NCBI RefSeq assembly: GCF_032854445.1
Contig: NC_088302.1
Coordinates: 38,628,191 to 38,692,190, forward strand
Length of the DNA: 64,000 bases
Direction of reading: 5' to 3'
Source: Liolophura sinensis
Taxonomy: Eukaryota > Mollusca > Polyplacophora > Chitonida > Chitonidae
Shown: positions 9,720 through 54,810 of the stretch, piece by piece
How positions within the stretch are numbered: the stretch's first letter is position 1
How the letters are laid out: every line of letters starts with the position of its first letter
The notes under the pieces: generated by a model
The model's input: the letters and a program-made list of their open reading frames with translations, nothing else
The model's database searches: none
What the model was told of the DNA's origin: nothing
Program-made: the position numbers and the translations under genes

Positions 9720-10777
9720 TTAGGTAGAGAGGAAATCAATATAGGTTTCCCGACGGTTGTTGCTAGTGTGGTCGAATCCGATGACCTTGATTTCTGTGCC
9801 TCCAAAAACTACCTCTAAATCCACCGATCTCGACCTATCACCAGTCACGTCAGGCATCTCTATAATGAGAAAGCCACATTTCTCCACGCCCTCCTCATCC
9901 GTGTACATCACTCCCCGACGACTGGACCGATAAAACTCAAATATTATACCCTTCTGGTTACTGATGATAGGTGTGTAACTTTCTCGCCAAACCTCGTTAT
10001 GCCCGATTATCTCTCCTGCCTCTGCCCACAGCTGTAGAATGTTCTTACACAATGTCATACCGTCTGACTCGACTTTCAAGTCCTCCCGATGCACACCTTC
10101 TTCAAAGGGCAGGTAGGAGCCCACCCCGTAGGTGTATCGACAGATCCTCTGCCCTATGGCGCCGGGGTCGTGTCCAAACGTGACTGCCCCACGCACCACC
10201 GCCAGACTGGCCTCCTCCGGCACAAGAACCGTAACTCTGTCACTAAACTTGTCTTTCACTGCCGCCTGTAACCGCCCACATTCGGCAAAACCACCCACCA
10301 GGAAAATGTATTTGGTGTCCTTCATTTTGGGTTTTTCTAACAGCGATTCTACGTGGTCTGTTATTTGCTTGAGAGCATCATCAAAGAGAGCACTGACCAC
10401 GTCAGACGACAGGACGAGCTTTCCCGACGAAAACTTGACACCCTCTTTGGTGCTATCCGCGAATGTTTTAATTAACTGTGGCACCGTTTTGTCGTCATAC
10501 TTAAAATTACAGAAATTGTAAGGCAAAGATACTCTTACACTTTGTGACTCACTATCACTGCGTTTTTTGATTTCAAAGTCTTGAAGCAATTCCTGATAGT
10601 CCTTTTGGTATTCCCGTTGGAACTCATTCATGAAGTCCTCGCCAAAGACTCTGTCGATGAGATTTAGAAACTGTCTGTCTACAATGGTTCCGCCCCAGGC
10701 ACCACCGCTGGCCCGGAACATCTCACGGACACGACCGTCTTTCCGAATTTTGTGAGCCACTACGTCAATAGTGCCAC
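9720..10777 (-). CDS. HSPA12-like: HSPA12-like terminal coding exon 4 (residues 270-621)
   Basis: Acceptor TTCTAG|GTGGCA restores the frame from exon 3 to complete GGGTIDVV. The exon contains ASGGAWGGTIVD (292-303) and the adenosine motif (428-440). The C-terminal beta-rich region ends DFLST followed by TAA. Confidence 0.95.
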
Positions 10778-13700
10778 CTAGAAGGCAAAAACACAGCATG
10801 GCTGCTATTAAAGGAACGATATAATTTGTTCGTGTTGATTAATTATTTGTATCCAACACGCATATTCAGAACGAAAACATTGTTCTTTTTGTCACAAGAA
10901 TAGGTTAACTTACATCCACAAATGGACCACATTCCCTTCAGTTTAAAGACAAATCACAAACTGTATTCAAGAAAATTTGAATAAATACAGCTTATTTCGA
11001 ACGGGTCGAATCTTAAGATCGAATGTTTTTAAAAAACTATTTAAGAATCTAGATCTTAGACATACCTCCAGCGTCCACTACAAGATATTTGGTTCCAGGT
11101 TCGAAGCTTGGGTTGTTGGCGCCTTCTGATTCTGAGCCGATGAAAGTGTTGGCAGGAAGACTTCGGCAGTGAAGAGAGGCGGCTTCGGGTTCCAGGGCGA
11201 TCAACAGCTGATCACTGTGCTTCGACTCTATGATACCCGCCTGGTGAAACATATCAATAATTACAAGAGACTGAAAAGAAGTACTCATTAAATGCCTTGC
11301 TCGGCATAGATCCGATTGATGAATTCATTGATTGGTATTAAACGCCGTAATCAAAACATTTCACCTCTATAAAAGACGGTGATTAATCCCATGGACATAC
11401 AGGGGAAAATTTCAAGATACGACGAATCTAACGATATTTCATTGTCCCTCAATACATCACCTGATGGTCTGAATTTCAGGACATACCAGAATAATTTTCC
11501 TCATCTTGAAGCTATACATCTTATACACCAATGCCTTTTTTTTACATTTTAAATATAAATTTTTTTTACCAGAACGTCCATGTAAGCAATGATTTCGTTT
11601 GAACTTCCCGAACCTAACTTTGGACATTGAGTCCGGGTGCCGTTCCTCCAAGCAGTTGTTCTAGGCTAAGTTATTTGTAACTATCATTGTAACTACAACC
11701 CTTAATTACTACCACGTAACAAACTTAATTACCAAGGTAAACATAGATTTCCATGGTAGTAAGAGTCAATTTAGACCACGAGGGTTTTGTGCAAATAAAG
11801 AACATTGCATATGACAAGATGTATGACTAGGTTGCGTACCTTGAAGGCGGATTCCCTCATGAACTGCTTGGCGTTCTCGTCCCAGATAGCGGGCACGGTG
11901 ATCACCCACCTGACGGAACCTGGGTCGGGCTGATAGCCAACCTGAGCCTCGACGGCCTTCAGCAGATGACGCTGCATGAAGTAGAGGGAGTGAGCGAACA
12001 CGTCCACGGCGTAGATCAACTGTCCGTTAGCCGCTACCAGGGTCAGCTCTGTGTGTAGTTCCTATAAACAACCAAACAATGATAGAGTGATTGGGTGATT
12101 GATTAATTAACTGCATGTATTATTAAATTAAACATATAAATTGTAAATATGATAAGAGGATTTCGTTTTGCATTAAGTGATTAATTCGTTTATTAACTTA
12201 TTGTTGTTTATTATTTGTTGTTTATTGCTTTTTGGCTGATTTGATTTTTGATTAATTTGTTTATTAATTGATCAGCTGATTGGTTTATTTTTATTAAAAT
12301 TCTCTTACTGCTTGAACAGCTTATTTGTTCAGTGGTATATACGCTGCTTCTTGTTGAATTATTTGCTTATTGGTTGTGCTCTGCTCTGTTTCCTCTCACG
12401 GTAATACTGGTAGACGTCGTATAAGTGAAATATTCTTGAATAGGGCGTAAAACAAAATCAAGTAAATAAATAAATATTGGTTGATTTGCTAACTTTTGTG
12501 TCTATATATAAAAGTCTTATTGATTTATTTAAGTATAATTACTAAATGGTTTATTGAATTGCTAAATGCATTTATTGGCATGTATACAGCTTTTTATTAT
12601 CCTCATCGCGTATTGGTTGATTTCCGAACTGATTCACTGGTATGTGCACAGCTTCTTAGTGACTTATTTGCTTACTGGTTGATTGGCTGATTGACTTATT
12701 GGCATTATGCAGCTTCTAACTGACATATTCGCGTATTGGAAGATTTGCTAATTGTTTTATTGTTATATTGGTATGCACCTTCCTAATGTTTTAATTGCTT
12801 ACTGACTCATTTGCTTACTGAATAACCGGTATGGTTAGAGTTTCTTATTGACTTATCTGCATACTGACTGAATCGATTGACCAAATAAGTAGCTGACTGA
12901 TCTATAGATTGTTCAAAAATAATTACGAGGTTAAACAGCTGATTCATGTATGGTTACTCTCAGAATTACGACTCGGGTTTTGTTTACGTCGGGATGGACT
13001 TGCTGATAGATAAAATCTACGAAACGTGCGTTGATTTATATGGGCTAATTGATGTGTCAGCTGATTTAAACAAAAAATAACTATCCCATTTAGATCATTC
13101 AGCGAATGCTTTAAGCTTAATTGTCAAAAGTTGTGTCTATAAAGTGATACTTCCGACCTTCACCATCAGTAATAATATTTACCAAAACGTCGGCAATATA
13201 AATTTTCATCTATGCGAAGAAAACAAGAGACATCCGCCACATAATATACCAACAAGCCAAAGTGTGTCCGAAAATTGCAGTTGCAGCTCAACCGAGCACG
13301 TGAAAGCTGCACCGAGCATGCGAAGGCTGCACCGAGCATGTGAAGGCTGCGTCGAGCATGTGCAAGCTACACAAAGTAGAGAATAAAACTGATCAAAGAC
13401 CGGAAGAAAAAAGGGGGAAAAAAACGAAAAATAAGGGTCGAGACAACGTGAACAGCTATTGCCATCTGCGATAAACCAGGCTATAAATACGTATGTGTCA
13501 GCTATTGCTATCTGCGATAAACCAGGCTATAAATACGTATGTGTCAGCTATTGCTATCTGCGATAAACCAGGCTATAAATACGTATGTGTCAGCTATTGC
13601 CATCTGCGATAAACCAGGCTATAAATACGTATGTGTCAGCTATTGCCATCTGCGATAAACCAGGCTATAAATACGTATGTGTCAGCTATTGCCATCTGCG

Positions 13701-15463
13701 ATAAACCAGGCTATAAATACGTATGTGTCAGCTATTGCTATCTGCGATAAACCAGGCTATAAATACGTATGTGTCAGCTATTGCTATCTGCGATAAACCA
13801 GGCTATAAATACGTATGTGTCAGACCCACAGATACATTTAATGATATACATGTATGTTAAGTCACAAGTTTATACTCAAATATGTTAAAATCTGTGAAAA
13901 CAGGAAATACCACCCATTAATAGTGAATCATATACATAATTTGCTCTCCACTTCCAACTAAATGTAAGCACGTAAACGCTCACAATGGATGGTAGGTGTT
14001 ACATGTATATACGGATATCTATACGGCGAAGGCTATAAACTTAGAATTGTAATATGTGTGATATACACTTTGGCCGACGCAGTGGTTTTTCTGATTAATA
14101 ATAGAAGGATGTGTATTTATTGAAAACGTTTCACAGTTTAGCATTGTTCATTTCTGATGTGCTAATAATAGCTTGGGGTTTACGTCAGAGTTTTAGTGAA
14201 TTTAATCTGTATTATATCGATACAATGCGATGCTCCGTCCTCATTATAGCAGCACAATTCTAGAGTTTAGCACCCTACTGCTAAGTCTATCTCTAGACTA
14301 TCGATATAACATAGTTGTATTCTCAATCTCACACATAGGCCATTGTTTGGAATATACGGGACAGGTGGCGTTAACTGACCGCCGGTCAAACGTAGATCTC
14401 AGATTTCATTCACATTGAGCGCTTTGTTAGCCGTCTAACTGACCAGCTGATGGCCAGTCTATTTCTGTCCCATTAGCCGTCTCGACCATGCTGAATAGAT
14501 CGATAATGGTTTGTGAGTTTAACATTTCCAGATTATTCATGTACTGTATCGTCTTTAATACATAATGATTACATATCGACGGAATTGTGTCATCCTTGTA
14601 TGTAGCATCTTGACGCGTTGGTGTCAGTGCCAATCATTATGTATGTGTCCACATCTGTCATATTATTTTTGCATGATAGTGAAATCGCTCATCCGTGTAA
14701 TTATCTCCCGTACCAGCCCCCATCCCGTTGTAACATGATTTTCCTTTTAAGGAAACTGAGAGATGCAAGGCCCTGATGAAATGTTCTTCAGAGATCCATT
14801 CTTACCTCCACAGATTACGTCAAACAAATCCAAATTGTCTAATTGATCATCGTCTGGAGATGGTTAGGAGCATATATACAATGCATACAGAATCTCTCCC
14901 ATGATAATAATTTCGGATTTTAAGACAAACAGTGCAACATTATAGGCGTATTTTGGGGGAGAATGACATTATATTTGTTGCTGAGGTATCTATACCCACC
15001 ACGTATAGCCAGTGCCTTGCAGAATCATTGACATAACCATCCATCCACTCACCTTATTGTCATACAGCTTCATTTTGAAACGGTCAAAATAATAATGAGT
15101 GACCGCTTCTTCTTCGGACAGTTCGTTATATTTGGACACAGCTTCAAAACCGAATGCTGAGAATTTCCCGTCAGGATCCAACAATAAACACGTCGGCGTT
15201 TTCTGCAGCAAGAAACCCTGAGTCTGACCCCAATTTTTGTTCGTCCAGATCGCCTCTTTGTTTCCTGTGAAGGAATATGCATAGCCACTGAATGTCGTGC
15301 CGAAATCTATGGCTGCAATGATCTTGTATTCGTTTACGTCCACGGGACAGGACTCAAAACAGTGCTCCTCCGAGCCTTGATCTTCGGTGTCCGGATCGTC
15401 AGACACTTCCCCTACCCCACTCACAGGCCTACTCCTTTCCCCGTCGTCGCATTTCTCCGCCAT
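9720..15463 (-). CDS. HSPA12-like: HSPA12-like Hsp70-family ATPase, four coding exons, 621 aa
   Basis: Coding exons are 15053-15463, 11840-12061, 11066-11240 and 9720-10777, all with GT-AG introns and compatible phases (0, 0, 1). The joined protein is 621 aa, close to vertebrate HSPA12A/B. ATPase-fold motifs occur in order: phosphate-1 loop DFGTTFSGYA at residues 53-62, WVITVPAIW with KQFMRE at 189-207, LIALEPEAAS at 223-232, phosphate-2 VVDAGGGTIDVV at 265-276 and the adenosine motif FLVGGFAECGRLQ at 428-440. As in HSPA12 proteins, the canonical Hsp70 substrate-binding domain and EEVD tail are absent. The first 40 residues are acidic and probably disordered. No signal peptide is seen, so it is likely cytosolic. 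HSPA12 genes are known to be expanded in bivalves and linked there to stress and immunity; the role of this copy is not shown by the sequence. Confidence 0.95.
11066..11240 (-). CDS. HSPA12-like: HSPA12-like coding exon 3 (residues 212-270)
   Basis: A 175-nt exon entering in phase 0 and leaving one base of the Gly-270 codon. The acceptor is ACCAG|GCGGGT and the donor GGAG|GTATGT. It carries LLIALEPEAASLHC and the first part of the phosphate-2 motif, KYLVVDAG. Confidence 0.93.
11840..12061 (-). CDS. HSPA12-like: HSPA12-like coding exon 2 (residues 138-211)
   Basis: A 222-nt exon, phase 0 at both ends. The acceptor is TATAG|GAACTA and the donor AAG|GTACGC. It encodes LTLVAANGQ and RWVITVPAIWDENAKQFMRE, both characteristic of HSPA12. 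Confidence 0.93.
12379..12476 (+). mobile_element. V-SINE-like element, 3' fragment
   Basis: A diverged 3' piece of the SINE family in HSPA12 intron 1. It shows 'cgtcgtataagtgaaatatt' and an (AAAT)n tail. Confidence 0.75.
13297..13372. repeat. 20-bp tandem repeat, 4 copies
   Basis: The unit is approximately 'accgagcatgtgaaggctgc', with single-base differences among the four copies. It lies in HSPA12 intron 1, shortly before the 46-bp array. Confidence 0.8.
13450..13823. repeat. 46-bp satellite array, about 8 copies
   Basis: Near-identical units contain 'ctgcgataaaccaggctata' followed by 'aatacgtatgtgtcagcta'. A C/T difference in 'gcYatctg' gives the order C,T,T,C,C,C,T,T, which suggests growth by blocks of units. 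Every unit carries a TATA-box-like 'ctataaata'. The array lies in HSPA12 intron 1. Confidence 0.93.
15053..15463 (-). CDS. HSPA12-like: HSPA12-like coding exon 1 (residues 1-137)
   Basis: Starts at the ATG of MAEKCDDGER, the first ATG after the 5' UTR acceptor, and ends AAG|GTGAGT in phase 0. It holds the acidic N-terminus, the phosphate-1 motif DFGTTFSGYA and FDRFKMKLYDNK. Confidence 0.93.
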
Positions 15464-15585
15464 CTTTCCCCGTTACAGCTTTGTTTGGGTTTGCTGAAGG
15501 ACGATATTGTCACTGCGGCATCACTGCTCCAGGAACCGCTGGCTCAGACGGCCTAGTTCAGCCCGTGGAAGGATATGAGCAGAAC
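15464..15585 (-). other. HSPA12-like: 5' UTR exon portion of the HSPA12-like gene
   Basis: A good minus-strand acceptor (TTTCCAG|GTTCTG) sits just beyond 15585, about 120 nt upstream of the ATG. The translation start is therefore probably in a second exon, with a first non-coding exon further right. Confidence 0.55.
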
Positions 15586-35406: not shown

Positions 35407-35441
35407 TTAGGCCAAGGCTCCCTTTTTCTCAGCTTCAATTG
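35407..35441 (-). CDS. Beta-thymosin exon 8: C-terminal tail
   Basis: Acceptor CATTTCAG|CA, then IEAEKKGALA and TAA. This is the short C-terminal extension typical of beta-thymosins; with exon 7 it gives a final phase-consistent codon. Confidence 0.88.
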
Positions 35442-38400
35442 CTGAAATGAGAAGATTCAAAACATGCCTATGAATTATACAAATATAAGAAATAACCCTG
35501 CCAATGCGATCAGTACTCTGTTGTCGAGAATAAGTGTAGTGTCTGGAATATTACAAACTGGCAGGGGCATTTAAATGCACCATGACATACTGTACACCTA
35601 CCCCCTAAATCAAATAAAAGAAGTGCTTATTTCAGGATGTATTCTTAATTGTTGTAAACTGTACATAAAGACGACTGCACTTTTCTCATTTACAGATAAC
35701 ATCTAGGATTATAGCATAGAAAACTGGTCTCTATATACAAGTACATGTAGCTGTAAGCCATTCTGCCTTCCAGGTCCTACAGGCGGAAAGTTTCACAATT
35801 AGAACGTAAAACATGCTCAGCTCTTCTTTTCTCCATGTAATAATCTTCACAGTTCCTGATAACAATTCTCTCAGATCCAATTGCTCTACAGTCCACACAA
35901 AAGTGAAGAAATGTTACACTGTCATACATGTGCATGCAAAATGTACAAAAATATGCTTTAGTGTGCCATAGGTACGCCGTGCACATAGTTCTGATAATCT
36001 GCACTATTTTTCAGCTAAAAGTATGATTTATAGTTGGCCACTTCCGTGTAAACCCCATGTGATTTTCTGTATTTATTCATTTATTGGATAGCTATTAATG
36101 CCATGCTAAAGAACATTTCACCCACATCATATGGCAATCAGTATTGTGGGTAGATGAAACTGGAGTGTGAGATTAACCACTGATAAGTCACTGATAAACT
36201 TTCAAACATGCGAAGTGCAGATGTGAAAAGTCTGTGCAAACGATCACAAAAGTTTTGTAGACTGTTGATCCCCTGCAAGGCCTAGTCAGCAGTGAGAGCA
36301 GGGGGATTTGTAAGAAGAATACAACTCACCAGCTTTGTCTGGCAAAACATTCTTTTCTTTCACATCAGTGTGTTTGAGTTTGCCTTTGTCAAACCCGCTG
36401 ATTGCTCCCTGAAACTCCTTTTCTTTCTTCTCCATATCCACATCTAAGTGAAAACATAAAGTTCTTTCACAATAACTTTTACCCTGGATGATTTAAATAT
36501 TTCAGGTTAACACATGTAGTTATAAAGTATGGAATTCTGTTATATTCCGTTTCACTTAAGATGATTTAAAAAGTCATACAATCTTGAAAGATGTGAATAT
36601 AAGCTTTAATACATTTGTATTCATTATTTATTTGGTTGATATTTTATGCTGTACTCAAAAAAATTTCGCTTATATGATGGTGGCCAACATTATGGTGTGA
36701 GGAAACTGGGCAGAACCTCTAGTGAAACCCACGACCATCCACATAATATATTTGTACATACCTTGCCTCGTTTGCCGCAAGTACTATAAAAGATTTTTTG
36801 AAATAATTAAGAGGGGACAGTGCATGTATATATCTATCCGAGTGGCTTCAGTGGCCTAATGGTTAGAGCACACACCTCGAAGTCAGGGAGGCCCAGAACT
36901 TCTACAAATGGTATTTGTTGATGACTGGCTTGCCCCTAAGCACTGACAGGTTAGAGCACGGAAACAGGACTGGTTGGCCTGGTTTCAGTGTAATGTGACT
37001 AGATTGGGTGTCATATCTGGTGTCTTTAACATGATACTTCAGGGGCTCAGCACATTGGCGGGATGGACTCTAACTGACACAAGATGACACAGTGCATGTA
37101 TATGTACTCGTTGTCATATGACTGAAAAAAAGTACGTCATTAAAACCCAAGGATATATACCTGCACACATAAACTGTAATTAAGTTGATGTATGTTTTGA
37201 AAATGTTTGAATAGGATCACAAGCATGATATGATAGCTTGTTTCCTCTATCTACCTACAACTACCATGACAAAATCACATCTCACTTAATACAAGGCTGT
37301 GATTACAAGTACCTGTTGGAGACGGTAAAGGATTTTTCTCTTGTGTTTCCGTGTGCTTTAAATTGTCCCTGTTGAACTCGCTGATGTTGGTCCTCAATTC
37401 TTGTTCTGTCTTTTCAACCTGGATGGCTGCAGAGAGAAATCCAATTTAAACTAGAGCAAAAGTTAAACTTACAATGACAACAATTCACGTTGTATTTTAA
37501 AGAAATTAAAAGAAAATTAAAAAAAAAAGGAATGAATTAGCATTAGTGGAAACTGAACCCAAAAACACCTTTACTTAATTATTACATTTTTCTGACTGAA
37601 CATGGGACAAACTTCCAACGGAGACCAGACAGTTCCGTAAGGTATGGGCAAGGGACAGACATCCAGCCTTGAGACCACACAGTTCTGTAAGGTGTGATCA
37701 AGGAAAAGACTTCCAGCCTTGAGGCCAGACAGTTCTGTAAGATATCACCAACGGACAGGCTTCCAGCCTTGAGACAAGACAGTTCTTTAAGGTGTGAGCA
37801 AGGGACAGACTTCCAGCCTAGAGACAAGATAGTTCTGTACGGTATGACCAGAGGACAGACTACGAGCCTTGAAACCAGACAGTTCTGTAAGGTATGATGA
37901 GCAAGTGACAGACTTCCATCCAAGAGACCAGACAGCTCTGTAAGGTGTGATTAAGGGACAAACCGCCTTGATATGAGACAGTTCTGTTACGTGTGAGAAA
38001 GAGACAGACTTCCAGCCTTCAGACGAAACAGTTCTGTAAGGTGTAAGCAAGGAATAGACTTCCAACCTTTAGACGAGACAGTTCTGTAAGGTCTGAGCAA
38101 GGGACAGACTTCCAGCCTAGAGACAAGATAGTTCTGTACGGTATGACCAAAGGACAGACTACGAGCCTTGAAACCAGACAGTTCTGTAAGGTATGATGAG
38201 CAAGTGACAGACTTCCATCCAAGAGACCAGACAGCTCTGTAAGGTGTGAGCAATGAACCTACCCAGACTTTAGACCAGACAGTTTCTTTGATTAGACAGA
38301 CTTCCAGCCTTGAGATCAGACAGTCCTTTTGATAAGACAGACTTCCAGCCTCGATCATCTACCTTGTGACTGCTCACTATTCTAGTATCCCGATGGCCAC

Positions 38401-39679
38401 AAACTCACCTTCTGGGCTAGGCATCACATTCTTTTCCACAGTCTCAGCAGGCTTAAGGGCTTTCTTATCAAAGTTGCTGATTCCTTCCTTCAACTCCTGC
38501 TCAGTCTTCTCCCCTTGAATTGCTAAAGCAATACAAACAGGACAGTTTATTTCAACTTAAATCACTACAATCATAAATTATAGGGACACCAAATATACTT
38601 ATAAAACCAGACTTACAATTTCTTCTCAATGATGTATCCCAGTAAAGGTTTCAGTCTAGAACATTTTCTGATATCCATAATATAGTACTTAACAACCATA
38701 ATCACGACAGTATAAGCATGAAACTTGTAATACTAAGAATAACCCAGTGCAAAGAAGTAGAAAAATTGTTTAAATATATGAATGAGTCAGTACAAAGAAA
38801 ATGAAGTCATTTTCTCATCACTGGACTTTTACAAGTTATATTTGTTAGGTAAGTAAAGAAAACGCATGTAAAAAAAATTCACACACACACAGAAAATGTT
38901 AGCCATGTTTTACTACTGATAACAATATAACAAAGCATAACAGTAAAAATTTTAACTTCTTTTCTTCCTGAACTGAACAAAAATTTATGGTAAATTTATT
39001 CATTCAATGATATGCAAAACAACCTGAAATTTGAGCGAATGTGCAGGAAAGCTTCATGTTTCAACCAAACAATACAGAGTCATCAGTCTGTTAATCTCCA
39101 AATCCTGTCAGCAAGCTGTCAACGTTCTCATGACAAACTGATAAAACTGATGTACATGTAGCTATAGTACTGTCAACGCCTTCAAACAAGCCCACAGATC
39201 ATCACATGTTTAATGTCAACATCACAAAGTTTCATTGTGGCAACCAAGGACACACAGACAGGTTAGTCCTTCCTACAGATACCACGATTGCCTTATAAAT
39301 TCAAAATTAGCATTTATAGAAAGTGGCTTTACAGATAAAAATGTCAACTCATGCAACCAAAGCCAAACAGTGCATGTACAAATTATCAACCTGCAGAAAA
39401 TCAGTCCATCTCAGCCACCATGCTTTACATCCGACCTACTCTCTGCTGAGGGCAGTACAGACTTTTCCTGGGTCTCTGTTGGTTTCAGACCAGCTTTGTC
39501 AAACTGGCTTATGCTACTCAGAAGGGAGAGGTGTTTTTTCTCATCTTCTATGACTGAAAAGAAGCGATGTACATGTACATATAATTGCTACTCATCCTGA
39601 CTTACATGTACCTACCTTTACGCTCTAGACCTGATATATCACGCACAGATGTATATGTATATCAGAATGAAACAGATAT

Positions 39680-39722
<43 letters not shown>

Positions 39723-42700
39723 ACAGAATGATGATATGTACATAAAAGTATGCAATAGAAGAAGCATGCTGTAGACTGGAGATTGGGGCACTGTAATAGA
39801 GTTAATATTTGTCAGAAAATATATTGTTCTAAAAGAATCATCATTCAGCACATGCGCAAGTACATGTAAACCAATAAGGTTTCCATGCATGTTTCAATTT
39901 AATGTAAAGCAGAAGAACAGTGCTTCACCTTAAGTTTAGCATTTTTCAAGTGAAACGTTTTCCTTGACTGGTGGGTTCATCCAGAAGGTTCAATTTTAAG
40001 GCTTCTGAAAGTCCATTTTTGCACACCAAACTTCAGGTGAAATACTGTAATCAATTTTCTGACACTAAATCAATTAATCCTGCTTAAACTTCCATCAGTA
40101 GGCCCTGTCCCAAGTTCCATCAATTGGCCCTGCTGAACGTTCAATGAGCCCCAGGTGCCTGAAGTTCCTTGGGCCCTGTTTTAACCTTCATCAGTGGGCA
40201 CTGCGTAACAATCTATCAGTTGGCCCTGCTTTAAACTCCATCAGTGGGCCATGTTTTACATCATAAGATCTTGCTTAAAGTTCCACGTGTGGGCCCTGAT
40301 TTAGATTTCTATCAGTAGATCTTGCTTTGTACTTCCATCAGTGGTCCTTGCTTAAAGTTTCATGACACAAGATCACAAGTGCTACTGAAAAGTCTGCACA
40401 AGTTTTCTCTACAATGACCTACCATATAACTTTCGGTAATATCTTTTTTTATCACAAATCAGACACTTGGAGGGAAAGAAAAAATACTGCCATAAATTTT
40501 GTTAAAAAAAAAAAAATCATCACAGTCTGAATTGTTTGATTGCTTTTCCTCTAAATGCAAAGCAGAAATCTGTTTCCTGTTACGTAGAACACATTACATT
40601 ATGATATTTTGCCCTTGCAACTTCATTTAGTACCATAAGAGAGATATATTTTAATATAATATTTTATATTATAAACCACTGACAAGTTTAGTCTGGGCAA
40701 TCAACATAACTCAAAGGACGAGGCACTGCACCCATTTACTTGATAGCTGTAACACATAGGCACTTTGGGATAGCCTTCATTAGTTGACTGATCTGTCAGC
40801 TTTGTGAGAAAATAATAATTACAGAGCGATGATGATACATTTACACGAAACAGACAACATGAAATTGTGGCCCCGATATATTGGGAAATCGATAGTTCGG
40901 ATTTGCTCACAGCGAATGTCTGAGCGATTACCGGACACACTGCGGAAGCAGACCATGCATTAATCAACAATGTGTGTCAGATAGAGAGAACAGGAGGTTT
41001 ATTACTATTGTGTATGTATTAATAACAAGACACTGGGAGGGCTATGAGTCAGGAAATAGCCATTCAGGTGTGGTACATGTGATATTGTACTGCTGCTGGA
41101 ATACCTATGTATAGGCCATCCGCATCATGGCAGAATACAAAACAGGTGTTCTAGTAGATTCACAAAAGTGTAAAGAGATATAACATCTGACATATAAGCC
41201 AAAGAGCCTAATACAAGTACAAACACATGTACTCAGCTAATATTTAATCATACAGGAGTCTATAAAGGGAAGCTTTGGACTATTTTGGGTGCTCTACAAC
41301 AAGCAGCAGTGGCTACTAGGACTTCTCTTACTCTCGGAATCGGGTATTACTGATTTCTCTACAGTTTCCACTTTTTTCAAGCCGCCTGTATTAAACTGAC
41401 TGATACTGTTAAGATATGCTTGAACCTTTTTCTCCTGCTGGACAGCTGGAAATGAAAACGCTTGTTTTATGTCTTGACAGTGGACAAAATCACACATAGA
41501 CACAGATTAAACAAAAAGTTTCAGTGCTAGCTGTCTTTGACTAAGAAAGAAGGATACACATAAATTATTTTTGGGAAGCATTTATAACGTATGACAAAAA
41601 ACAGCGAATACGTTAGCTGTTCTTACAAAGAATTTAGATATAATGTTGCTAATCCTTTGTTTGCAAACAACAAGATAGTTCAATGGTTAGGTTTCCCTAT
41701 TTAAGGAAACTTGCTCAATATTATCACACATTACAACCTATGAGCTTTTATCAAGAGGTTCTGCATGCACTATGTTATTTGGCAAAGTAGTTTTAATTTC
41801 AGCAAATCAAAGCTGTATGGGGATTAAAACTATTCTTAGCAAATCTGAACTGTTTGAGCGATTTAAAGCACTTCTCAGCCAATCTGAACTGTTTGAGCGA
41901 TTTAAAGCAGTTCTCAGCAAATGAAAGAGCTGTTTGAGTGATTAAAGCAGTTCTCAGCAAATAAAAGCTGTATAGAGGATTAAAGCATTCTAGTTTCACT
42001 ATAAGTCAATGAAATTTCAATTATCTGATGGATAATTTGATGTTCTGAAGCAGGATTTTCTGTATATCTACCCGACTGGTTTACAAACCTGAAGAATCGG
42101 GTAAAGGATTTTTCTCTTGTGTTTCTGTATGTTTTAAACTGTTCCTGTTGAACTTGTTGATGTTTGCTCTCAATTCTTGTTCAGTCTTTTCAACCCTGAT
42201 GGCTAAAATCGTAGTGAACAAATAAAACAAAAGAAATGCACAGAAAAGAATAGAAAAGAATAAACACAACAAAACACAAAAGTGAAAAAATCGAAATGAA
42301 GGAATGGGAAACAACTGAAAAAAGTAGGATCGGATGGAAGAAAAACAAGCAAAATCAAATAGAACAACTGAAAGAAGGAAGTCAATACACCAGTAACGAT
42401 TGTATGTGTAGTAAAAGAACACTGGTGTCGATGCTGTTTCATGGCCAGTGTCATAAAAATGTGCAATGTCACAAGACAGTGTTTAGAGTTGTACGGTTTT
42501 CAAACTTTGATTGCCTGTCCCCTAAGGTCTACTCTTTAAGAGATCTTTAAGAGTACTTCAAGCATTGTTTCCTTCATACTCTGGCGCCAATGGTGTACCG
42601 TTCCAGAAATAATCAGTCCATCACAGTGGTGGTTCAGGAATGGTATTGCACAATTTTAGAGACTGGAAACAAATTACAGAACAAGTTCCTCATTACTCGA

Positions 42701-43437
42701 AACCACACATGGATGAAGCAACAATAAGTTGCATTTTGAGCTAATAAATGACAAGTGGCAGCTAGGCTGCAATCTGCTTTGTGTAACCTGCCACTGCTCT
42801 TGTGAAAATTGATTTAATTATTAATTTGACTGGTGTTTTTACACTGTACTGAAGAATATTTCACTTATGCGACGGCCACCAGCATTATGGTGGGAGGAAA
42901 CCGGGCAGAGCCTGGGGAAAACCCACGACCATCTGCAGGTTGCTTCAAGACCTTCCTACTAATGGCAGGAGAGGAAGCCAGCCTGAACCGGACCTGTGCT
43001 TACAGCTACGACATTAGTGAGAAGCTCCTGGGTCATTGGGATGTGCTTGTGTGCTAACTTCCTCGGACATGGACACCCTTGTAAAAATAATTCTGTGAAC
43101 ATTCAATCTCGTAAAAAAAAATAAGGCTTGTTACTTGTACAAAGCTTTATTAATGACTTTACACAATTTCTTATAAATAATGCTCCTTTACGGTATAACG
43201 TCCAAGGCAACATAACTTATCAAACAAAAAAAAAAAATTAATAAAGTTTTGTTGCACTTGCCTATGTCGATTCCATTGTACATATACACACTAATTGTAA
43301 ATCGCTACTGACAAAACAAAACTCACTTTCTTTGTCAGGCAATGGGTTTTTCTCCTGAGTCTCCACATGCCTCATTTTGTTTGGGTCTGTCTGGTGATGT
43401 CAGCAATGAATGGAGCTTTCTTGTCACCGTCGGCCAT
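35407..43437 (-). CDS. Seven-repeat beta-thymosin (actin monomer-binding) gene
   Basis: Eight coding exons: 43327-43437, 42089-42202, 41332-41445, 39440-39553, 38409-38522, 37313-37426, 36330-36443 and 35407-35441. Repeats 2-7 are each one exon of exactly 114 nt (38 codons) with phase-1 introns on both sides. Every repeat shows the beta-thymosin pattern: an amphipathic helix ending in (I/N)xxF(N/D), then an LKxTET-like actin-binding motif (MRHVETQ, LKHTETQ, LKKVETV, LKPTETQ, LKPAETV, LKHTETQ, LKHTDVK) and a linker EKNxLP. The expected protein is about 276 aa, ending IEAEKKGALA. Multi-repeat beta-thymosins are known in invertebrates (for example Drosophila Ciboulot and nematode tetrathymosin) and regulate actin assembly in the cytoplasm. 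Exon 1 has a 1-nt frame break at about 43388-43389; the other exons join cleanly. Confidence 0.93.
36065..36165 (-). mobile_element. Very diverged SINE-like fragment
   Basis: 'tttattcatttattggatag' followed by a decayed 'gccatgctaaagaacatttc' segment and 'ggcaatcagtattgtgggta'. It resembles the V-SINE 3' part and lies in thymosin sequence between exons 7 and 8. Confidence 0.4.
36330..36443 (-). CDS. Beta-thymosin exon 7: repeat 7
   Basis: 114 nt, acceptor ACTTAG|AT, donor GCTG|GTGAGT. Contains FQGAISGFDKGKLKHTDVKE and KNVLPDKA. The actin-binding motif is the most diverged of the seven (TDV in place of TET). Confidence 0.93.
36622..36742 (-). mobile_element. V-SINE-like element, 3' half
   Basis: Tail plus core ('tatgctgtactcaaaaaaat', 'cccacgaccatccaca'). 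The tRNA head is absent. It lies in the intron between thymosin exons 6 and 7. Confidence 0.85.
36836..37153 (+). mobile_element. Second SINE family, near full-length
   Basis: The head resembles a tRNA with an A-box-like 'tggcctaatgg' at 36852-36862 and 'ggttagagcac'. The body contains 'gtgtcatatctggtgtcttt', and the end 'aagtacgtcattaaaaccca' matches the tail fragments at about 18463 and 25026. The B box is decayed. It lies in the intron between thymosin exons 6 and 7. Confidence 0.65.
37313..37426 (-). CDS. Beta-thymosin exon 6: repeat 6
   Basis: 114 nt, acceptor CTGCAG|CC, donor AACAG|GTACTT. Contains LRTNISEFNRDNLKHTETQE and KNPLPSPT. It is strikingly similar to exon 2 at DNA level. Confidence 0.93.
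37600..38355. repeat. Minisatellite of about 49 bp with a higher-order duplication
   Basis: Units of the type 'agacagttctgtaaggtgtg' plus 'agcaagggacagacttccag' plus 'ccttgagac' run across the intron between thymosin exons 5 and 6. A block of about 155 bp at 37797-37951 recurs almost exactly at 38096-38250, so units have been amplified in groups. Long minus-strand open frames here only translate the repeat. Confidence 0.9.
38409..38522 (-). CDS. Beta-thymosin exon 5: repeat 5
   Basis: 114 nt, acceptor GCTTTAG|CA, donor GAAG|GTGAGT. Contains LKEGISNFDKKALKPAETVE and KNVMPSPE. Confidence 0.93.
39440..39553 (-). CDS. Beta-thymosin exon 4: repeat 4
   Basis: 114 nt, acceptor TTTTCAG|TC, donor GAGA|GTAGGT. 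Contains LLSSISQFDKAGLKPTETQE and KSVLPSAE. Confidence 0.93.
39678..39718. repeat. (TA)n microsatellite
   Basis: About 40 bp of alternating AT in the intron upstream of thymosin exon 4. Confidence 0.95.
39925..40065 (+). repeat. Dispersed repeat family B, copy 1
   Basis: Shares 'aagtttagcatttttcaagt', 'taaggcttctgaaagtccat' and 'caggtgaaatac' with 49902-50130 and, inverted, with 52180-52425. The element type is unknown. Confidence 0.6.
40085..40370. repeat. Degenerate tandem repeat, unit about 30 bp
   Basis: Diverged units of 'ccatcagtgggccctgcttt' plus 'aaagttt'. About nine copies lie in the thymosin intron between exons 3 and 4. Confidence 0.75.
41332..41445 (-). CDS. Beta-thymosin exon 3: repeat 3
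   Basis: 114 nt, acceptor TTTCCAG|CT, donor GAGA|GTAAGA. Contains YLNSISQFNTGGLKKVETVE and KSVIPDSE. Confidence 0.93.
41805..41990. repeat. Tandem repeat, about 38-bp unit, 4-5 copies
   Basis: Units of 'ctcagccaatctgaactgtt' plus 'tgagcgatttaaagcagtt', diverging toward the edges. The array lies in the intron between thymosin exons 2 and 3. Confidence 0.8.
42089..42202 (-). CDS. Beta-thymosin exon 2: repeat 2
   Basis: 114 nt, acceptor ATTTTAG|CC, donor TTCAG|GTTTGT. Contains ELRANINKFNRNSLKHTETQ and EKNPLPDSS. Confidence 0.93.
42811..43066 (-). mobile_element. V-SINE-like element, near full-length, diverged
   Basis: Tail, core ('ccagcattatggtgggagga') and decayed tRNA head ('gtgctaacttcctcgga'). 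It lies in the thymosin intron between exons 1 and 2. Confidence 0.9.
43327..43437 (-). CDS. Beta-thymosin exon 1: start codon and repeat 1 (frame break)
   Basis: Starts ATG in MADGDKKAPFIADITR. The frame then meets TGA after QTQTK, while the adjacent frame continues DPNKMRHVETQEKNPLPDKE to the donor GAAA|GTGAGT. The exon is 111 nt, whereas a 112-nt exon (37 codons plus 1 base) would match the repeat pattern and the phase of exon 2. One base therefore appears missing near 43388-43389. Confidence 0.88.
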
Positions 43438-52425: not shown

Positions 52426-52611
52426 CAGTCAGGAATTATTTGTAATGTCCTTGATTATGCACTTTTATGTATATATGTCCATGATTTAATGTTGTTGGGG
52501 TTCTAGAACAAGTCTGGTAATTGGCACAATGGTGACACTTTACATAATTTGATTTCTAAGTAGAGTATATGGTGGTCCTATATGTACACGTTGTAATAGC
52601 TCCACATAAAA

Positions 52612-53215
52612 TGGGTGGATGAGGAAGGGGGTGGGGTGGGTGGTTAGAAGAGGAAGGGGTTGGGGTGGGTGGTTGGAAGAAAAAGGGGGTGGGGTGGGTG
52701 GGTAGAAGAGGAAGGGGATGAGGTGGATGGGTGGAAGAAAAAGGAGATGGGGTGGATAGGTGTAAGAGGTATTTGTTTATTTATTTATTTGATTTGTGGT
52801 TTACGCCGTACTCAAGAATATTTCACTTATACGATGGCGGCCAGCATTATGGTGGGTGGAAACCGGGTAGAGCCTGGGGGAACCCACAAACATCCGCAGG
52901 TTGCTAACAGACCTTCCCACGTACGGCCGCAGAGGAAGCCAGCATGAGCTGGACTTGAACTCACAGCGACCGCATTGGTGAGAGACTCCTGGGTCATTAC
53001 GCTGCGCTACTGCGCTAACCAACTGAGCAGGTGTAAGAGGAAGAGTGTGGGTTGGTGTAAGAGGAAGGGGATGGGGTGGATGGGTGTAACAGGAAGGGGG
53101 TGGGGTGGGTGGTTGAAAGAGGACGGGGATGAGGTGGGTGGGTGCAAGAGAATTTAAACACTATCAGGATGGATGGGAGAGGAAGGGGTCACGGTATGTG
53201 AAGAGTTAAGGTATA
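52612..53215 (+). repeat. G-rich minisatellite, split by a SINE
   Basis: Irregular units of 'ggaaggggatggggtgggtg' plus 'ggtagaaga' on both sides of the SINE at 52770-53028. Several stretches, such as 'gggggtggggtgggtgggt' near 52685, have four closely spaced G runs and could form G-quadruplexes. Confidence 0.85.
52770..53028 (-). mobile_element. V-SINE-like element inside the G-rich minisatellite, with target duplication
   Basis: A 259-bp minus-strand copy ending at 'ccaactgagc', slightly short at its 5' end. It is flanked by the 12-bp direct repeat 'aggtgtaagagg' at 52758-52769 and 53029-53040. Its sequence is close to the family consensus, so it is fairly recent. Confidence 0.94.
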
Positions 53216-53816: not shown

Positions 53817-54536
53817 AAACCTACATGTATGGCTGCAGCTTTATTTGTAGGTGAAGTTTGATTATTATACTCAGGATTATTTCATTTACAGGACGACGGG
53901 TATTCAAAGTCCAATTATCAGAGTGAATGGGGAATACTGGTTGGAATAGGATGTTGTGGGACCCAATATACATTATAATACATGAAGCTGAGTAGAGCTG
54001 CCAACAACTGCTCTTTATCTATAGATGGCAGCTGGTAATAGTGAGGGTAGGGTCACTAAGCCTTACAGGGGTCAGGGATCAGAGGTCAGGCCATGCACTG
54101 CCAGGAAAAGAGAATAGAAGCAGGCAGTGTTCTCTGACATAGGACAGATGGTGACAAAAACACAATAGAGAGAGTGAGAGCCAGGCAGAGGACTGGGTTA
54201 CAACAAAATATGCAGGTTTGAACACTGCATGCAGAGTGAATGTCTGTACCAGGATGCCACTGTATAAAAAATATAATTTTTATATCTGCTACTACATATT
54301 AGACTGCACAGACCCCACGCTCCTTCAATAGGGTGCTCTTTTTATATTGAGCCCAACCCACTATACAACACTGTAAATGTTTACTTTTAGGGTATCAGCA
54401 TTTAAAATTATAATCTTGAAGAACTTATACAACCATGATACACTGCAATAATAATACAGTAGATTGGAAATCTCTCTTTGTCCTTCTTCATATACCAGTA
54501 CATGTATTTAGCAGAACAAGTATAAAGTAAAATTGT
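53817..54536. other. Non-coding stretch, mostly unrecognised
   Basis: A decayed V-SINE-like trace ('tatactcaggattatttcat') lies near 53868-53910. No exon is seen. Confidence 0.35.
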
Positions 54537-54664
54537 CTGCCAGCAACTTGCGGATGGAAGTAGGTTTCCCTCTCTGCCAGGTTTCCTCTCACCATAATGC
54601 TGGCTACCGTCGTATGAGTGAAATATTCTAGAGTACGGTGTAAAACACCAATCAAATAAATAAA
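54537..54664 (+). mobile_element. V-SINE-like element, 3' half (first of a pair)
   Basis: Starts at 'ctgccagcaacttgcgg' and runs through the conserved core to an (AAAT)n tail. It is preceded and followed by 'ataaagtaaaat'. Confidence 0.88.
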
Positions 54665-54673
54665 GTAAAATAG

Positions 54674-54810
54674 CCTGCCAGCAACTTGCGGATTTTCATG
54701 GGTTTACCCTTCTGCTCGGTTTCCTCCCACAATAATGCTGGCTGCCGTTTTATGAGTGAAATATTCTAGAGTACGCATAAAACACCAATCAAATAAATAA
54801 ATAAATAAAT
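54674..54810 (+). mobile_element. V-SINE-like element, 3' half (second of a pair)
   Basis: Begins at the same point of the SINE as its neighbour and is followed by a third 'ataaagtaaaat' at 54817-54828. Confidence 0.88.

Follow-up and report, generated by a model that had tools for sequence, protein, structure and literature searches.

A putative multi-repeat beta-thymosin gene with six equal 114-nt internal exons in the chiton Liolophura sinensis

Thymosin exons in the window and elsewhere in the genome

The minus strand of the window, the 64-kb stretch of chiton DNA analysed here, holds the eight predicted coding exons of a beta-thymosin gene. Exon borders from E1 to E8 were chosen from splice consensus and homology; E2 to E7 all lie between an AG and a GT and are matched by a profile of the thymosin unit.

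43327 to 43437, minus strand: E1, first coding exon from ATGGCC, 111 nt, holding unit 1 and out of frame with E2
42089 to 42202, minus strand: E2, 114 nt, phase 1-1, near-twin of E6
41332 to 41445, minus strand: E3, 114 nt, phase 1-1
39440 to 39553, minus strand: E4, 114 nt, phase 1-1
38409 to 38522, minus strand: E5, 114 nt, phase 1-1
37313 to 37426, minus strand: E6, 114 nt, phase 1-1, twin of E2
36330 to 36443, minus strand: E7, 114 nt, phase 1-1
35407 to 35441, minus strand: E8, last coding exon, 35 nt to the TAA at 35407, completing the C-terminal helix of the last unit

The seven introns of this gene range from 643 to 1778 nt. Joined together, E2 to E8 amount to 719 nt and encode 239 residues in a frame that stays open to the TAA at 35407; the other two frames contain 14 and 18 stops, and none of 20000 mononucleotide shuffles of the same exons was free of stops. 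The translation of E2 to E8 matches the Pfam Thymosin family (PF01290) in six stretches, with a score of 203.5 bits (cut-off 24.8), and WH2 with 45.8 bits. Six complete units follow one another in one frame within the 239 residues, at least two such tandem units being the mark of a multi-repeat beta-thymosin. Protein identity between the units of E2 to E7 lies between 39 and 74% over the 15 pairs, and this homology rules out a chance equality of exon lengths. The array matches six solved sequences, all of which are peptides, chimeras or fusions of Tb4, Tb9 or Ciboulot.

Each beta-thymosin unit would bind one G-actin through a helix, an LKxTET strand and a C-terminal helix. From E2 to E7, the LKKTET-like actin-binding motif reads LKHTET, LKKVET, LKPTET, LKPAET, LKHTET and LKHTDV, and Ile9, Phe12 and Leu17-Lys18 (Tb4 numbering) are kept in all six internal units, whereas unit 1 as assembled is without an in-frame Phe. 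Residues 35-36 are RV in unit 1 and QQ, ED, QG, QV, DM and EA in the six internal units.

To delimit the array, a profile of the six units was run over the 64 kb against stop-to-stop frames of at least 10 residues. This search recovered E2 to E7 whole and E1 in part and, among the 30 best matches, yielded no further or decayed unit outside E1-E7 with an E-value better than 0.67. A search of the genome (609,464,459 bases in 632 contigs) with the Thymosin model returned six matches from 14 scored candidates, corresponding to E1, E2, E4, E6, E7 and a single-unit paralogue; the same search missed E3 and E5 and is thus not exhaustive, so that further thymosin genes may exist. The paralogue lies on the same contig, 6.5 Mb from the array.

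C8:32111224-32111125, minus strand: first coding exon of the single-unit beta-thymosin, 100 nt, phase 1; Thymosin match of 55.5 bits at C8:32111126-32111218
C8:32109527 downwards, minus strand: candidate second exon, TIEQEKTS followed by a stop, ~1.6 kb on, with a pyrimidine-rich acceptor

The second exon is the one candidate given by a narrow pattern over ~24.6 kb downstream of the first exon. The resulting protein, MADKPDL...TKE|TIEQEKTS, keeps Glu-Gln at positions 35-36, and its intron falls at the same residue and in the same phase, 1, as the exon borders of the array.

Several introns of the array gene contain tandem repeats: 39-nt units at 41799-41991 between E2 and E3, 25-nt units at 40079-40258 between E3 and E4, and, between E5 and E6, a minisatellite at 37608-38351 with ~13 copies of 50 nt followed by ~2 of 41 nt. 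Of the 13 TTACAG words present on the gene strand from 43326 to 35442, this minisatellite carries 8, which form a row of acceptor-like sites.

Exon symmetry and a putative cassette design

The initial annotation had described six consecutive internal exons of exactly 114 nt bounded by phase-1 introns, each encoding one full 38-residue unit, and had proposed that any of them could be skipped or duplicated without loss of frame. The lengths were borne out: all six internal exons on the minus strand measure 114 nt, with AG before and GT after them and phase 1 at both ends. To assess the frame, we joined subsets of E2-E7 to E8, E1 being represented by its final base, and found an open frame in 64 of 64 subsets and in 36 of 36 ordered pairs. 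The correspondence between exon and unit required amendment, since each exon does add 38 residues but does not hold one whole unit. An exon opens with the counterpart of T-I-x-x-E-K from the preceding unit and closes two to three residues past N-P-L-P of the next, so that its border lies inside the C-terminal helix and the exon combines the end of one unit with most of the following one. With its border within this helix, an exon corresponds to a circular permutation of the unit, and the joining of any two array exons yields a whole unit.

This arrangement suggests a mechanism. Each internal exon would supply the final residues of an actin-binding unit together with the bulk of the one that follows and, since all six are 114 nt long and phase 1-1, any spliced subset would be a chain of complete units, by which the number of G-actin sites could be tuned through exon skipping. 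Exon anatomy, frame behaviour, family membership and the paralogue are shown by the sequence, whereas exon skipping and actin function in this chiton are inferred. In the termite Hodotermopsis sjostedti, exons 2-5 of the ciboulot homologue HsjCib are reported to be 114 bp each, with mid-domain borders and skipping isoforms (PMC2896938). The cockroach Periplaneta americana gene Pa-THY is reported with exons of 139/114/114/114/114/26 bp and three isoforms produced by skipping (PMC6801668); its first exon of 139 bp is 1 mod 3 and its exons sum to the 621-bp coding length, which places the reported borders in phase 1. The silkworm BmTHY1/2 gene is described with two 114-bp exons, exon 3 being skipped in BmTHY2 (PMC4608725). 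With internal exons of 114 nt and borders inside the domain in six of six cases, the chiton gene falls into the same class of cassette exons as the termite and cockroach genes. It differs from HsjCib and Pa-THY in having six equal exons instead of four, from HsjCib also in being known from genome sequence whereas the termite isoforms have been demonstrated, from Pa-THY in a first exon that is out of phase, and from the silkworm gene in its larger number of units.

An alternative reading, which we deem unlikely, is that the equal exons are a side effect of ancient tandem duplication of exons and are always spliced in full to give a single isoform length. Duplication of a phase 1-1 exon would automatically generate the observed symmetry, and conservation at the protein level extends to all six units. 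Against this stand the skipping of 114-bp exons reported in the three insects (PMC4608725, PMC6801668, PMC2896938) and the variation in unit number described outside them. The crayfish variants Pl-beta-thymosin1-5 have one to five domains, ascribed to the splicing of one gene with exons 1-7 whose structure is putative and inferred from cDNAs (PMC3614969), and, in a mollusc, the sea slug Hermissenda, CSP24/29 are quoted with 4/5 domains (PMC2896938). The same literature quotes 27 units for Hydra thypedin (PMC3614969). Taking these lines of evidence together, we consider it very probable that the locus encodes a multi-repeat beta-thymosin of the ciboulot/tetrathymosin type, including the exon design and its reading as a set of cassettes. 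Complementarity of the donor sites to U1 was strongest at E5 (-10.7), followed by E7 (-9.2), E2 (-9.1) and E6 (-7.1), and weakest at E4 (-6.1), E1 (-5.7) and E3 (-5.3); the use of donor strength for ranking exons by their propensity to be skipped was rejected, the U1 pairing measure being too crude.

Regarding actin function, Glu35-Gln36 is reported as needed for sequestering in work cited by PMC3614969. None of the in-frame units of the array has this pair, which argues that the array supports actin assembly rather than storage. Its residues thus predict a ciboulot-like, assembly-supporting protein as more likely than a storage protein, and the single-unit paralogue, which keeps Glu-Gln, as a likely store of actin. 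Position 6 of the helix speaks against this indirect, residue-based assignment, as it is hydrophobic in just two of the six internal units (R, L, L, K, R, Q). The termite study judged its isoforms by N-terminal residues and called three of five sequestering-like, some of them multi-unit (PMC2896938). One chromosome carries both a single-unit form with a sequestering-type C-terminal helix and a multi-unit form with such a helix in 0 of 7 units, a pair suited to testing how unit number and C-terminal helix set the balance between actin storage and assembly.

The exon-skipping design is already published for insects, and the chiton gene is an ordinary mollusc example of it. New here are a mollusc gene with six 114-nt exons, as compared to four, four and two in the insects, its similar pair E2/E6, and a single-unit paralogue that belongs to the same family and shares the phase-1 intron site. 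Since the paralogue has the same phase-1 border and the insects have 114-nt exons, the cassette design appears to be older than the chiton gene. The gene extends the 114-nt phase-1 cassette architecture from arthropods to a chiton, arguing for an origin in the protostome ancestor and for a fixed exon frame on which the number of units changes. In the open-access literature searched, we found no description of a chiton beta-thymosin gene. The passages at hand of a database paper covering Polyplacophora contain a beta-thymosin orthogroup without gene structure (PMC8059625), and in a further paper that mentions chitons, thymosin appears in a reference title alone (PMC2040160).

The E2/E6 pair and the history of the array

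Comparison of the six internal units revealed one pair that is far more similar than the rest. E2 and E6 share 82% of their nucleotides and 74% of their residues, with 30 of 38 third positions alike (dN 0.14, dS 0.54, dN/dS ~0.26), as against 7 to 18 of 38 third positions in the other 14 pairs, for which dS is saturated in 12 and amounts to 1.69 and 1.24 in the other two. The likeness between E2 and E6 ends within ~2 nt of the exon edges. The comparison shows that, well after its other units had diverged, the array acquired a further unit or homogenised one, with E2 and E6 being either a younger copy and its source, three exons apart, or a homogenised pair. Evidence for a larger segmental duplication was sought in the flanking sequences, and this option was rejected, as flank similarity did not exceed that of shuffles: out of 200, the observed score was reached by 159 and 42 shuffles for the 150 nt upstream and downstream, and by 82 and 29 for the corresponding 600 nt. 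By our own arithmetic, a dS of 0.54 would leave unconstrained flanks ~62% alike before indels, and the flank test therefore cannot separate duplication from exon-limited conversion. The tandem arrays in the E2-E3, E3-E4 and E5-E6 introns might favour unequal exchange. The fully open frame of E2-E8, together with the E2/E6 dN/dS of ~0.26, suggests that, taken overall, the gene is not dead.

The first exon and other features of the window

E1 has a length of 111 nt, which is 0 mod 3, whereas entry into E2 at phase 1 requires 1 mod 3. Read from ATGGCC, its frame runs for 21 codons before a TGA at 43374-43372. Two stops, at 43426 and 43402, interrupt the frame that leads into E2. This frame contains a single ATG within E1, located midway through unit 1 at 43375, where it overlaps the stop of the 21-codon upstream frame. 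In the E2-compatible frame, the 3' half of E1 matches Pfam Thymosin with 42.5 bits (profile positions 12-37), the 21-residue 5' reading has no Pfam match up to an E-value of 1, and a read-through of E1, with X placed at the break, scores 45.9 bits (positions 3-37). The gene had been annotated as seven-repeat, but the exons as assembled, with E1 out of phase, encode in frame six complete units preceded by the latter half of another, so that seven is a count we infer across the break in E1. The wider interpretation thus keeps its frame tolerance and the gain or homogenisation seen in E2/E6, and loses the seven-repeat count and the identity of one exon with one full unit.

The most likely source of the phase discrepancy is an assembly error or an allelic indel. 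The published L. sinensis assembly comprises 609,495,693 bases in 632 scaffolds, built from HiFi reads at 14x coverage with a heterozygosity of ~1.24% (PMC11068029; the species name Liolophura sinensis follows the correction in PMC12441733), and such coverage and heterozygosity make an indel error or an allele in E1 possible. That E1 is instead truly broken or re-purposed, with translation starting at ATG 43375 to yield a 255-residue protein in which six full units follow the latter half of unit 1, strikes us as decidedly improbable. In favour of this reading, the ATG at 43375 is the only one in the E2-compatible frame of E1 as assembled; the reading also agrees with the use of HiFi reads and with a genome-wide DNA search in which E1 found itself alone, with no second copy. 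It is countered by the room that the reported coverage and heterozygosity leave for an indel error or allele, by the persistence of unit-1 coding similarity in E1, and by the E1 donor, which still agrees with the consensus in 8 of 9 letters in spite of its modest U1 pairing.

It is very doubtful that the N-terminus comes from an unseen upstream coding exon spliced to an acceptor-like AG inside E1 or straight to E2. AG dinucleotides do occur in E1 upstream of 43375, and E2 would accept any exon ending in phase 1, but a narrow scan of the window upstream, for ATG open reading frames that end in F followed by G|GT, brought up two candidates, both unlike thymosin, and the unit profile found nothing above noise outside E1-E7. 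Least probable of all is a combined reading in which E1 is really out of phase, the 255-residue protein arises by re-initiation at the ATG overlapping the stop of the 21-codon frame, a headless unit 1 precedes an array of six units, skipping determines the length of this array, and E2 and E6 are alike through exon-limited conversion.

Elsewhere in the window, open frames at 9723-10838 and 14993-15472 on the minus strand, which by appearance resemble an HSP70-like (HSPA12-type) protein, had no Pfam match at an E-value of 0.001. On the plus strand, G-rich 29-nt tandem repeats form two blocks at 52578-53181, separated by a dispersed repeat that is also present at 42.8 and 36.6 kb. A 138-nt unit occurs in ~2 tandem copies at 54522-54805, with related repeats at 56.6 and 33.5 kb.
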